From: Tepidimonas sp.
GTDB taxonomy: Bacteria; Pseudomonadota; Gammaproteobacteria; Burkholderiales; Burkholderiaceae_C
NCBI RefSeq assembly: GCF_029335975.1
Contig: NZ_JARJMT020000153.1
Location: forward strand, 1 to 34,214
Direction: 5' to 3'
Length of the DNA: 34,214 nt
Within the stretch, counting starts at the first letter, position 1. Each line of letters opens with the position of its first letter. The notes below the pieces were generated by a model, which saw only the letters and a list, made by a program, of their open reading frames with translations, was not told the DNA's origin and did no database searches. This document shows, in pieces, positions 29,068-34,214 of the stretch. A program made the position numbers and the translations under genes.

Positions 29068-29144
29068 AGGCGCGTAGCTCAGCTGGTTAGAGCACCACCT
29101 TGACATGGTGGGGGTCGTTGGTTCGAGTCCAATCGCGCCTACCA
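29068..29144 (+). tRNA. tRNA-Val (anticodon GAC)
   Basis: A 77-base cloverleaf: acceptor stem AGGCGCG paired with CGCGCCT, D-arm with GCTCAGCTGGTTAGAGC, anticodon stem CCACC/GGTGG around the loop TTGACAT (anticodon GAC, reading GUC and GUU), T-arm with GGTTCGAGTCC, and an encoded CCA end. The body closely resembles E. coli tRNA-Val(GAC). Confidence 0.97.
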
Positions 29145-30721: not shown

Positions 30722-31126
30722 TCAGGCCGTTGCAGCGGTGGTTACATTGACCATGTGGTCCGCCAGTTGCTGCAGCGCTTGCTCCAGAGCGCGACGCAAA
30801 TTTTCGTCGCCAACTTCCTCCGCCAGTGCCAAACGCATGCACAACATCCACTGATCGCGCTCTGATGCCCCGATCGCGTACGGCAGGTGGCGCATGCGCA
30901 GGCGCGCAGGGCCTCGTTTCTGGGTATACAGCGGCGGCCCCCCCAACCAGCCTGATAGGAACTCGAACAGGCTCTGACGCGCAACGTCCAGGCTGGGTGG
31001 ATGCAGCTTGCGCACACCCCAGGCTTCGGGTAACTCATCCATCAGATCATAGAAGCGGTTCACCAAACGCCGTACGGCAGCCTCGCCGCCGAGTGCCGCA
31101 TAGGGGGTGGTCGGTGGGATCGTCAC
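30722..31126 (-). CDS. Truncated haemoglobin, group II (TrHbO type)
   Basis: Small haem protein of 134 residues. Landmarks are the N-terminal YAALGGEAAVRRLVNRFYDLM with Tyr26 at the B10 position, the proximal His80 in RLRMRHLPYAIG, and Trp93 (G8) in RDQWMLCMRLAL, the combination typical of group II. Proteins of this class bind O2, NO or sulfide and are linked to oxidative and nitrosative stress defence. The start is GTG at 31126, with GAGGAGGT seven bases upstream; a longer frame to 31303 runs across the promoter described next. It is divergent from the sigma-54 activator. Confidence 0.9.
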   Translation of the reverse strand: MTIPPTTPYAALGGEAAVRRLVNRFYDLMDELPEAWGVRKLHPPSLDVARQSLFEFLSGWLGGPPLYTQKRGPARLRMRHLPYAIGASERDQWMLCMRLALAEEVGDENLRRALEQALQQLADHMVNVTTAATA

Positions 31127-31164
31127 AGAGACCTCCTCAGACGGGTGCAAAACCAACTCCACAT

Positions 31165-31185
31165 GTGGCCGCAACAGACGGCCAC
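31165..31185 (-). other. Hairpin in the globin 5' leader
   Basis: GTGGCC (31165-31170) and GGCCAC (31180-31185) are an inverted repeat with a 9-base loop. It lies between the predicted sigma-54 transcription start (about 31197) and the globin start codon, so it would fold in the leader RNA. It does not cover the ribosome-binding site. Confidence 0.4.
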
Positions 31186-31207
31186 GTTTCGCTCTGGCTG
31201 CGGCAGA

Positions 31208-31223
31208 TGCAGGATGCGTGCCA
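31208..31223 (-). promoter_or_regulatory. Sigma-54 (-24/-12) promoter for the globin gene
   Basis: The minus strand reads TGGCACG, then CATC, then CTGCA. This matches the sigma-54 consensus TGGCACG-N4-TTGCA at all but one base (C for the first T of the -12 element), with the GG and GC invariant pairs at the correct distance. Transcription would start near 31197, about 70 bases before the globin start codon. A sigma-54 activator is encoded divergently next to it. Confidence 0.72.
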
Positions 31224-31271
31224 ACCGGATGGCAGCCGCGCATCCCAGCGCAAGGTCGCCAGATATCCCCA

Positions 31272-31286
31272 ACACCGGTTTGGTGT
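31272..31286. promoter_or_regulatory. Candidate activator-binding site (upstream activating sequence)
   Basis: ACACC (31272-31276) and GGTGT (31282-31286) form an inverted repeat with a 5-base centre, about 50-65 bases upstream of the -24 element of the globin promoter. This is the region where enhancer-binding proteins bind as dimers. It is also close to the start of the activator gene, so self-regulation is possible. Confidence 0.45.
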
Positions 31287-31331
31287 CGCCATTTGGCAGA
31301 CAATCATGGCAGATGTTAAAGGATGGTCTTT

Positions 31332-32699
31332 ATGAATCCGCTGCCCGAACTCGCTGCCTTCCTCGAAAGCTTGCCAGAGCCCCATATTTTGTTCGACCGC
31401 GAGTACCGCATCTTGGCGGCCAACAGCGCATATCGACTCGCATTCAGTCCGCAGCAAGAGGTGGTCGGACGGCGCTGCTTTGAAGTTTCCCACCATTTCG
31501 ATCGGCCATGCGATCAAGCCGGTGAGTCGTGTCCGCTGGCGCAGTCATTGCGCTCCCATGCCCGCGAGCGCGTCCTGCATTTGCATCACACCCCCAAGGG
31601 CGAGGAGTATGTGAACATCGAGCTGACCCCGCTGCCTGATGGGCAGGGACAGCTGAACTATTTCGTCGAGAAGATGGCTGCGCTGCCCAGCGTTCATCCG
31701 CGCGCAGGCGAGGAAATAGCCCTGGTGGGCCGCTCGCCAGCGTTTCAGCGTATGCTCGCGCGTGTGGCGCGCGTGGCGCCATCGCAAGCCAATGTCCTGC
31801 TGTTGGGCGAGTCCGGCACGGGCAAAGAGCTGGTGGCGCGGGCCATCCACGAGGGCAGCCCGCGCGCTGCGCGTGCGCTGGTGGTTGTGGATTGTTCCAG
31901 CCTTCCCGAGGCGCTGTTCGAGTCGGAGGTTTTTGGGCACGAAAAGGGCGCTTTCACCGGCGCCACGCATGCCAAGATCGGGCTCGCCGAGGTGGCCAAC
32001 GGCGGCACGCTGTTTTTGGACGAGGTGGGCGATATCCCGTTGTCGATGCAGGTCAAACTGCTGCGGTTGTTGGAGTCTGGCACATTCCGCCGCGTCGGCA
32101 GCACCGAGTTGCGACGCACCGATGTGCGGGTCATAGCGGCCACCCACCGCGACCTCGATGCGCTGATGCAGCAAAATCGGTTTCGCGAGGATTTGTACTA
32201 CCGCTTGTCGACCTTTCCCATCCATTTGCCGCCACTGCGCGAGCGACGCGAAGACATCCCCTTGCTGGCAGCGGCTCTGCTGCAGCGCATGCTGCCTCAG
32301 CGGCGCCTGAGCCTGCATCCCGAAGCGCTGGCGTTGTTGCTGGCTCATCCCTTTGCAGGCAATGTCCGAGAGCTGCGCAATATCCTCGAGCATGCCGCCC
32401 TGTGGTGCGACGGTGATGAAATCTTGCCAGAGCATGCCCAGGAAGCCCTGAGCGCCAGCTGTGCGGGTGCGGCCAACCGCGCCCTGCCGATGCCGCCACG
32501 GACGCCGGTGACATCGAAGACCGACGCCGAGGCCGCGTGCACCGAGGCACTGCCGCGTGCACGCCGCGAGCAAGAGCGCGACATGCTGCAGCGCGCCTTG
32601 CAGGAATACCCAGGCAGCCGTGCGATGCTGGCGGCTCGACTCGGCATCAGTGAGCGAACCTTGTATCGCAAGCTCAAAGCGCACGGGCTGCTGGGCTAG
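31332..32699 (+). CDS. PAS-domain sigma-54-dependent transcriptional activator
   Basis: Bacterial enhancer-binding protein of 455 residues. Residues about 5-115 are a PAS-like sensor with a Cys/His cluster (Cys49, His54, His55, Cys60, Cys67). The AAA+ domain has Walker A GESGTGKE (159-166), the sigma-54 contact loop GAFTGA (206-211) and Walker B GGTLFLDE (224-231). A Fis-type helix-turn-helix (about 430-452; ARLGISERTLYRKLKAHG) ends the protein. The ATG at 31332 is preferred over 31323 because AAAGGA (31318-31323) sits eight bases before it. There is no two-component receiver, so the PAS domain must sense directly. The divergent globin with a -24/-12 promoter is the likely target; the sulfide dehydrogenase genes nearby may also be. 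Confidence 0.92.
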   Translation: MNPLPELAAFLESLPEPHILFDREYRILAANSAYRLAFSPQQEVVGRRCFEVSHHFDRPCDQAGESCPLAQSLRSHARERVLHLHHTPKGEEYVNIELTPLPDGQGQLNYFVEKMAALPSVHPRAGEEIALVGRSPAFQRMLARVARVAPSQANVLLLGESGTGKELVARAIHEGSPRAARALVVVDCSSLPEALFESEVFGHEKGAFTGATHAKIGLAEVANGGTLFLDEVGDIPLSMQVKLLRLLESGTFRRVGSTELRRTDVRVIAATHRDLDALMQQNRFREDLYYRLSTFPIHLPPLRERREDIPLLAAALLQRMLPQRRLSLHPEALALLLAHPFAGNVRELRNILEHAALWCDGDEILPEHAQEALSASCAGAANRALPMPPRTPVTSKTDAEAACTEALPRARREQERDMLQRALQEYPGSRAMLAARLGISERTLYRKLKAHGLLG

Positions 32700-32729: not shown

Positions 32730-33458
32730 CTAACGCCGACGTTCGACGCCGAGATCGGCGTAATAACGGGCCAACGCCTCGATTTCGGAGCGGCTGAGCC
32801 GCTCAGCAAAAAAACGCATGCCTTTGGCGACGTCGTTGTTGCGTTGTCCACCGTGGTAGTGCAACATCGTGCGCACAAAGTACAGCGGATTTTGGCCTGC
32901 CAACGCCGGCGCTTCTAGCTTACCGCCTTGACCAGCGACACCATGGCAGCTGGCACACGGTGTGATCAGGCGTTGTGGATCGCCTCGACGCACCAGTTGC
33001 TCCGCAACCTGGGTTGTGGTGTCTTTCCCTGCACGCGCCGCCTGCTCCGGTCGCGGTGGTGGCAAGCTGGCGTAGTAGGCTGCCACATCCGCGATCTGTT
33101 GCGGTGAGAGCATCTGCGCGACATCGCGCATCAGTTGCGCACCCTGAGTCTCAAGACGGCGGCCTTGCTGGTAGTCCAGCAGCATTTTGGCCGTGTAGCT
33201 GGCTTTTTGGCCCGCCAAGTGCGCCCAATTTTGGGTCGGCGCCACACCGGCCTCACCATGGCACGAGGCACAAAACATCCGCTGGTGCACCTGTTCACCG
33301 CGCCTGGGGTCGGCTGCAGGCAGCGCCGATAAGGCTTGCCGCAGGCTCGCGCTGGTCCATTCGGCAGCGCTGGTCGTATGTGCGCCAGCCGCATGCGCCA
33401 AGCCATTGGTACCCAGCAATGCTACTGCAGTCAGCCAGGGGACGATCAAGCGTTGCAT
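32730..33458 (-). CDS. fccA: Dihaem cytochrome c, probable FccA subunit of flavocytochrome c
   Basis: Periplasmic c-type cytochrome of 242 residues with a signal peptide (residues 1-24, cleavage after AHA-A). Two haem-binding sites CASCH are at Cys63 to His67 and Cys168 to His172, in two similar c4-like domains; candidate Met ligands follow in LMRDVAQM and KGMRFF. It lies 17 bases after fccB on the same strand, so it is probably the electron-accepting subunit of flavocytochrome c sulfide dehydrogenase. AGGGA six bases before the ATG at 33458 fixes the start; two further upstream in-frame ATGs are less well placed. A stand-alone cytochrome c4 is the alternative. Confidence 0.82.
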   Translation of the reverse strand: MQRLIVPWLTAVALLGTNGLAHAAGAHTTSAAEWTSASLRQALSALPAADPRRGEQVHQRMFCASCHGEAGVAPTQNWAHLAGQKASYTAKMLLDYQQGRRLETQGAQLMRDVAQMLSPQQIADVAAYYASLPPPRPEQAARAGKDTTTQVAEQLVRRGDPQRLITPCASCHGVAGQGGKLEAPALAGQNPLYFVRTMLHYHGGQRNNDVAKGMRFFAERLSRSEIEALARYYADLGVERRR

Positions 33459-33475: not shown

Positions 33476-34214
33476 TCAAGCAAAACAGTCTTGGGTAAAG
33501 GTGCGCAGCCACGCCTGCTGGTAGCGCGCCCCCAGCCGAATTTGTACCGGCGAAGCATCCAGCGGCAAATAGCGTGCCTTGCCGTTGACGCGGCCGATCT
33601 TGCCATCGGGTTGGATGCGAAACACATCGGCTACGAACAAGCCATAGTCTTTTCCAGCCAGTGCGTAGCAGGTGTTTTCCCACAGCGGCTCGGGGGCTTG
33701 GCGACCCGCCAGTTCCTCGACGACAGCTCGCGCGACCACTTTGGCCTGGGTGTTGGCGGAAAAGCCGCTCTTGGGCATCGCGTCGGCGATGCTGGCGTCG
33801 CCAATCACATGCACATTCGGCACCCGCGTCGAGGCGAATGTGCGCCGCTCGATGGGACAAAAACCGCTGTCGTCGGCCAAGCCGAAGCTGCGTGCGATGG
33901 CGCCAGCGCGCATCGGGGGAATGATGTTGATGACATCTGCCTGCAGCGTGCCGCCCTCGGTCTGCACCTGCATGCGTTTGGCATCGAGCCGGAGGAGGCG
34001 GCCGCCTTCCTTGGCGCGAATCCAGCTGATCATGCTGGGCTTCGCGCTGGGATGCAGTTCTACCTTTTCGCTTATTTTTTTTGCATAGTCGTCGGGCAGG
34101 GTAAAGCCGTAGAGACGATGCCAGCCCAGCATCATCGTTTCATCGGTGACGAATGCGTCCTTGGGGTCAACAATGATGACCTTGGCCGTGGGATTGCGCT
34201 GCAGCAACCATTCG
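33476..34214 (-). CDS. fccB: Flavocytochrome c sulfide dehydrogenase flavoprotein FccB (partial, C-terminal part)
   Basis: The minus strand is open from the right edge (34213) to a stop at 33476, giving about 245 residues of the C-terminal part; the N-terminus lies outside. The sequence matches the FAD-dependent sulfide dehydrogenase family: AFVTDETMMLGWHRLYGF, the FAD-binding VPNVHVIGDASIADAMPKSGFSANTQAK, and the C-terminal flavocytochrome c domain with ENTCYALAGKDYG. The Cys in SGFCPIERRTF is at the place of one of the redox-active cysteines of FccB. The enzyme oxidises sulfide to sulfur or polysulfide in the periplasm and passes electrons to cytochrome c. A sulfide:quinone-type relative is less likely because a dihaem cytochrome gene follows. 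Confidence 0.87.
   Translation of the reverse strand, partial: EWLLQRNPTAKVIIVDPKDAFVTDETMMLGWHRLYGFTLPDDYAKKISEKVELHPSAKPSMISWIRAKEGGRLLRLDAKRMQVQTEGGTLQADVINIIPPMRAGAIARSFGLADDSGFCPIERRTFASTRVPNVHVIGDASIADAMPKSGFSANTQAKVVARAVVEELAGRQAPEPLWENTCYALAGKDYGLFVADVFRIQPDGKIGRVNGKARYLPLDASPVQIRLGARYQQAWLRTFTQDCFA

Follow-up and report, generated by a model that had tools for sequence, protein, structure and literature searches.

NorR is a sigma-54 activator that senses nitric oxide through a GAF domain and acts on a divergently encoded target, either a flavohaemoglobin gene or norVW. FisR of Cupriavidus pinatubonensis JMP134 was reportedly described by Li et al. in 2017 as a sigma-54 activator of sulfide-oxidising genes; we take its gene to be divergent from pdo and sqr, and the protein presumably carries an AAA+ domain and a Fis HTH. 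On the globin side, the truncated haemoglobin (trHb) of Bacillus subtilis is said to belong to group II, as does the globin considered here. In the excerpts available of PMC8614764 and PMC9495516, sulfane sulfur brings about a Cys53-Cys64 tetrasulfide in C. pinatubonensis FisR, and the available text of PMC9774590 has three conserved cysteines of FisR participating. According to the accessible part of PMC3391200, the trHb of Thermobifida fusca binds sulfide, which is stabilised by TrpG8 and TyrCD1, and the functional role of truncated haemoglobins is unclear; most group II globins are assigned a catalase-peroxidase-like role in the corresponding part of PMC4720485.

The locus described here lies in the window, by which we mean the whole 34,214-nt stretch of DNA that was analysed, taken from a Tepidimonas-like assembly of 2.15 Mb in 200 contigs. 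On its minus strand, a gene for a group II trHb of 134 aa (30722-31126, GTG start; PF01152, E 1.4e-34) follows a ribosome-binding site, GAGGAGG (31132-31138), and a sigma-54 -24/-12 element, TGGCACG-CATC-CTGCA (31208-31223). Facing it on the plus strand is the gene for a FisR-like sigma-54 activator (31323-32699), and between the two lies a putative enhancer (UAS). In our view the locus is probably a pared-back version of a widespread regulon that depends on sigma-54 and a FisR-like activator, responds to sulfide or persulfide, and counts a separate group II globin clade among its members. The adjacent activator likely controls the globin through sigma-54, and we are more confident of the promoter taken by itself than of this reading as a whole. 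The genome has one copy of rpoN (PF04552, 219 bits) and four Pfam matches to Sigma54_activat, the strong ones being the window activator and a protein on contig C25 that reads, by eye, as NtrC-like. Between 30600 and 31500 we found no terminator, no sigma-70-like promoter (by a simple consensus scan) and no Rfam match. After the activator come, on the minus strand, a neighbouring c-type cytochrome gene, probably for two haems (32730-33458; two stretches matching PF00034), and then a gene for a flavocytochrome c sulfide dehydrogenase (FCSD) flavoprotein, cut by the window end (33476-34213; PF09242, E 5.2e-19, and PF21706); the activators of Tepidimonas alkaliphilus, T. aquatica and genome G007 also have FCSD-like genes nearby. 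Elsewhere in the window, a tRNA-Val (gac) gene (29068-29144, plus strand) sits between RelA/SpoT-like and DnaB-like genes, both protein names being assigned by eye.

Relatives of the activator were collected through its PAS domain, which was found in 78 of the 399 genomes of the family. From these 78 and a few other genomes 84 distinct upstream regions were read; duplicates (L182, L186, L241), a locus with no usable start (L011) and three without a match to the PAS query (L012, L013, L066) had been left out before counting. An independent set comprised 40 loci in 39 genomes from other families of the order, being the top of 60 out-of-family rows listed minus two further copies in G775; some of its stretches end at contig ends.

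The window activator matches PAS_4, Sigma54_activat and HTH_8 in Pfam, so the preliminary description was right to call it a PAS-type divergent sigma-54 activator. It measures 455-458 aa, with a start at 31323 or 31332, the ATG at 31332 being the more likely of the two, with AAGGA at 31319-31323 8 bases ahead. The GAFTGA loop is present in 64 of 67 relatives, the window protein included, whose Walker A motif is also intact. Three related activators (L200, L205, L214) have GAFTDA and keep a -24/-12 element; their sigma-54 contact loop may work differently. Every one of the 67 proteins, and every one of the 40 from the independent set, carries C-X10-C-X6-C in its PAS domain. In the window the triad is C52, C63 and C70 (numbered from 31323; codons within 31476-31532, plus strand), where the spacing of Cys52 and Cys63 equals that of FisR Cys53 and Cys64; the third FisR cysteine we assume to be at the position matching C70. 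FisR of Acinetobacter baumannii, in the accessible part of PMC7315123, responds to sulfide even though its regulatory cysteines are not conserved; the triad therefore supports a sulfur signal and is no proof of one.

The activator was compared with a protein of C. metallidurans CH34 to which it is 49.6% identical over 98% of its length. The gene of this protein is transcribed divergently from those for a Blh-type persulfide dioxygenase (E 2.5e-116) and an SQR, which follow the promoter TGGCACG-GGTT-TTGAG. An activator tree of 89 rows groups the window protein with two other Tepidimonas proteins (100/100) inside a 59-row clade (94/98), and 23 rows including the C. metallidurans pdo-sqr type of FisR form another (100/99). 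In this tree the window clade is sister to the pdo-sqr clade and not within it, and because the join between them is weak (83/44) we call the window activator FisR-like and not FisR. This kinship makes sulfide or persulfide, not nitric oxide, the likeliest signal. A separate observation concerns the T. aquatica activator (L010), which is missing 64 AAA+ residues in frame and may be inactive, or else reflect an assembly error.

The window activator faces a globin gene and not persulfide dioxygenase and SQR genes as in C. metallidurans, and the rows of genes facing its relatives suggest how this arrangement came about. In T. alkaliphilus and T. aquatica the promoter is followed by a DUF6858 gene, an SBF-family transporter gene and then the globin, so the promoter is not globin-specific. 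In other genera the opposite row has cydP-cydA-cydB first and the globin usually late, sometimes after Rieske, ybgE, MBL-fold, DUF302 or DUF6858, SQR-like or SBF genes (the MBL and SQR-like names are weak model matches under curated cut-offs). Where cydA, cydB and a globin occur together (L281-L291, L200, L205), the globin lies downstream on the same strand in 13 of 13 loci and is the outermost of the searched markers in nine, another marker lying beyond it in L282, L284, L287 and L290. L176 has the order Rieske-globin-MBL-CcoG, other relatives carry CcoG or Rieske genes and no globin, and in some the sequence that was read contains no recognised partner. Within the independent set a globin lies within about 11 kb of the activator in 10 of 40 loci, several with an SQR-like match further out. 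These rows may be transcribed as single operons. Near the window the globin alone remains of the row, and the locus looks like a pared-down version in which a formerly late gene now comes first. Besides the window, G060 (L214) has a globin gene directly opposite the activator, with a poor UAS (3.4) and GAFTDA in the activator.

The genome holds a second DUF6858 gene, on contig C146 (L126:10-400, minus strand), which we rejected as a further target, as it has neither a -24/-12 element nor a UAS. It is 84% identical to the DUF6858 gene of T. alkaliphilus, and over contig ends sharing 136 identical bases it is followed on C28 by a 77-aa globin ORF (L125:1-425) that lacks its middle part and looks to the eye like the globins linked to activators. 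Near the pair, which seems to be an acquired, degraded copy, lies an ORF resembling a type I restriction methylase (again by eye).

The most serious alternative to a sulfide/persulfide-responsive regulon accepts a functional activator and promoter and assigns them another signal than sulfane sulfur, such as a redox cue, a metal, haem, or low O2 leading to cytochrome bd. Many rows do have cydA/cydB, CcoG or Rieske genes, with no sulfur gene recognised in the part that was read, and the activator falls outside the clade of pdo-sqr FisR. However, the cysteine spacing is identical to that of FisR, and genes for persulfide dioxygenase, SQR-like, MBL, DUF302 and FCSD proteins recur near the activator. 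Moreover, cytochrome bd genes are themselves induced by sulfide in A. baumannii, according to the part of PMC7315123 available. We therefore regard a different signal as unlikely, while giving it more weight than any other alternative, and keep sulfide or persulfide as the preferred signal.

The case for the promoter is carried by conservation. The element differs from TGGCACG-N4-TTGCW by a single mismatch, just as the preliminary description had it, and has the correct spacing, with GG and GC 10 bp apart; it is the sole match of such quality in the window, where 0.75 would be expected by chance. Genome-wide, the sub-pattern TGGCACGNNNNNTGC has 22 matches against 13 with a reversed control, which leaves the site without significance of its own. 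Beside orthologous activators the picture is different. Of the 84 upstream regions, 59 contain TGGCAYR-N4-TTG oriented divergently from the activator, where a shuffled set yields 0.50; the opposite strand has it in two of the 84. The window site, with CTG at -12, stands outside these 59 strict sites; the pattern TGGCACG-N4-NTG, which includes it, is found in 47 of 84 regions against 0.55 in shuffles. The -12 part of the strict sites reads TTGA in 45 cases and the textbook TTGC in just five. The independent set gives the same result, with a strict or window-type site at 28 of 40 loci (27 strict, one variant) against 0.25 in shuffles. The strict pattern is absent from 25 of the 84 regions, and 12 of the 40 independent loci have neither pattern; some site-less regions, for instance in G259 (L170, L286), have extra genes between the activator and the opposite row.

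The start of transcription is predicted at 31197 (minus strand), 12 bases past the C of the -12 element, which leaves a leader of 71 nt to the GTG at 31126 and agrees with the distance of about 70 bases given earlier. Comparison supports transcription of the globin from a sigma-54 promoter and, as the likely partner of this promoter, the neighbouring activator. The promoter was to be given up if close relatives with both genes had lost the element; the two other Tepidimonas genomes that encode activator and globin have kept it, and there two genes separate the promoter from the globin. In three loci of the Rubrivivax/Piscinibacter type (L007, L008, L009), a GATACC-N6-GGTATC-like inverted repeat seems, by eye, to overlap the promoter at its -12 end.

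A candidate enhancer emerged from a de novo motif search of the upstream regions that used no prior alignment and returned the palindrome CTGCCA-N4-TGGCAG. It reaches a score of at least 12 in 59 of the 84 regions, and of the 40 independent loci 36 have it, where shuffled sequences give 0.80. A split test within the 84 regions gave 26 of 42 and 30 of 42 against 1.2, but the seed consensus had been learned from all 84, so only the 40-locus result counts as independent. The window copy, GCAGACAATCATGGCAGA (31296-31313), scores 15.7, below T. aquatica (21.8) and T. alkaliphilus (23.4), and its left half-site (GCAGACA) is weaker than consensus. Its centre lies at -107 from the predicted start, as in T. 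alkaliphilus, against -118 in T. aquatica. Helical phasing of the UAS was considered and dropped: 44 in-family distances gave R = 0.56 at 10.4 bp, equalled by 0 of 2000 jittered sets, whereas 25 out-of-family distances gave R = 0.12 at this period. The preliminary description had placed the enhancer at an ACACC-N5-GGTGT inverted repeat. This repeat is indeed there (ACACC-GGTTT-GGTGT, 31272-31286) and would be expected only 0.03 times in the window, but it is probably not the enhancer, being exact in one of the 84 upstream regions, that of the window alone, and present with at most one mismatch in two (0.8 expected). The intergenic region holds four perfect 5-bp inverted repeats against 1.5 expected.

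The classification of the globin stands as first given. With PF01152, His80 and Trp93 present and 4uur and 2xyk as its nearest solved relatives, it is a group II truncated haemoglobin. His42, His80 and Trp93 are invariant in an alignment of six sequences; we take His80 to be the proximal histidine and Trp93 to be G8, with helix names transferred through the alignment, by which His42 would occupy position CD1. When the window globin was searched against the 399 family genomes, the best 150 matches, as listed, formed two groups: 17 of the best 26 (E 1.1e-45 or better) had the activator on their own contig no more than 10 kb away, and none of the next 124 did, the closest of these listed matches being 21 kb away (G307); the distances were obtained by comparing coordinates by hand. 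In a globin tree of 54 rows, a branch supported at 100/99 splits 24 of 25 sampled ordinary globins from the window-type and solved globins. L280, ordinary by score, clusters with the activator-linked globins, and the next branch (94/76) puts the two solved globins with the ordinary ones.

The nine of the best 26 globins that lie more than 10 kb from any activator or are unlinked (L292-L300) allowed a test in trans, for which we scanned upstream of the first recognised row gene or of the globin itself. Five (L293, L294, L295, L297, L300) have a UAS scoring 15.7-18.6. Each of them also has a -24/-12-like site, of good quality in L297 (TGGCACG-GGGC-TTGAT) and L294 and of poorer quality in the other three. 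No UAS was found upstream of the other four, whose best scores were -6.3 (L292), 8.8 (L296), 1.6 (L298) and 5.4 (L299). A search found an activator elsewhere in the genome for four of the five with a UAS, G348 being the exception, and for none of the four without, so that UAS and activator agree in eight of nine. This supports the proposal of a FisR-like regulon with the globin as a member.

One of the four, L292 in G006, also speaks for a different history of the window. The promoter there might be a relic, left after the row genes were lost, with the globin merely downstream and its expression or function independent of the activator. G006 has a globin 84% identical to the window globin, no such activator, no -24/-12 element and no enhancer; the -12 (CTGCA) and UAS of the window are weaker than those of both sister species, the -12 also being weaker than consensus; and the T. 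aquatica activator has its large in-frame gap. Against this, the window retains element, UAS and spacing along with an activator whose GAFTGA and Walker A are intact, the ribosome-binding site is strong, and the consensus scan offers no sigma-70-like promoter in place of the sigma-54 one. A relic thus appears rather improbable, and a step less credible than a different signal.

Control of an NO-detoxifying globin by nitric oxide, the NorR parallel drawn in the preliminary description, was not borne out and seems very improbable. The AAA+/HTH part of the activator does match the NorR model (E 1.9e-92), but with 310.6 bits against a curated cut-off of 476 and beginning only at residue 127; ahead of it stands a Cys-triad PAS of the FisR type in place of a GAF domain, for which there was no Pfam match at E <= 0.1, and the rows that the activator faces elsewhere include cytochrome bd genes and sulfur genes. 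A -24/-12 match arising by chance, as its window and genome counts by themselves would allow, is the least credible reading of all given its conserved position and orientation beside orthologous activators.

For the FisR-like regulon we favour, the following course of events can be envisaged. An oligomer of the activator would bind the palindromic UAS at 31296-31313, and sulfane sulfur formed from sulfide would react with the cysteine triad of the PAS domain, as may be extrapolated from C. pinatubonensis FisR. The AAA+ domain would then touch sigma-54 through GAFTGA and remodel RNA polymerase at 31208-31223, giving a globin mRNA that begins near 31197. The globin would probably aid respiration in sulfide stress, perhaps by binding or oxidising sulfide or persulfide; alternatively it may handle O2 or peroxide near cytochrome bd, by removing peroxide or supplying the oxidase with O2. 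In A. baumannii, sulfide induces both cydAB and the flavohaemoglobin gene hmp, as stated in the part of PMC7315123 available, which provides a precedent for co-induction of an oxidase and a globin. More tentatively, and as something a little less likely than not, the distinct group II clade could serve specifically in the response of Burkholderiales to sulfide/persulfide stress, co-induced by FisR-like activators with a sulfide-resistant cytochrome bd and genes of persulfide/sulfide oxidation, its haem acting on sulfide or persulfide.

Membership in such a regulon would give one globin clade a testable role, in sulfide/persulfide stress together with cytochrome bd, and would extend the FisR-type regulon beyond pdo-sqr into respiration. 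The analysis also yields a proposed binding site for FisR-like activators, CTGCCA-N4-TGGCAG, and a family of sigma-54 promoters open to joint testing. A partial search of the literature on FisR, sulfide, cytochrome bd and truncated haemoglobins found no report of a globin under FisR.

Among the described systems closest to the locus is FisR of C. pinatubonensis, with which the window activator shares the spacing of the regulatory cysteines and to which it was compared through the C. metallidurans counterpart; the latter has, by homology, the same AAA+ and Fis HTH and the promoter form TGGCACG-N4-TTGAG. In contrast to the C. pinatubonensis type, the window activator belongs to a sister clade and drives a globin alone, and the rows of window-type activators centre on cytochrome bd, Rieske or CcoG, and globin. 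With NorR it has in common a sigma-54 activator and a divergent target, whereas the GAF domain, the class of target and the neighbours differ. FisR of A. baumannii is likewise a sulfide-responsive sigma-54 activator, divergent from pdo1-sqr-tauE-hsd, but lacks the conserved regulatory cysteines, and the FisR operon named in the accessible part of PMC7315123 has no globin. As for the globin, the T. fusca trHb is of the same group and has TyrCD1 (PMC3391200, in the part available) where the window globin has histidine. Unlike the trHbs of T. fusca and B. subtilis, the window globin is linked to a FisR-like regulon.
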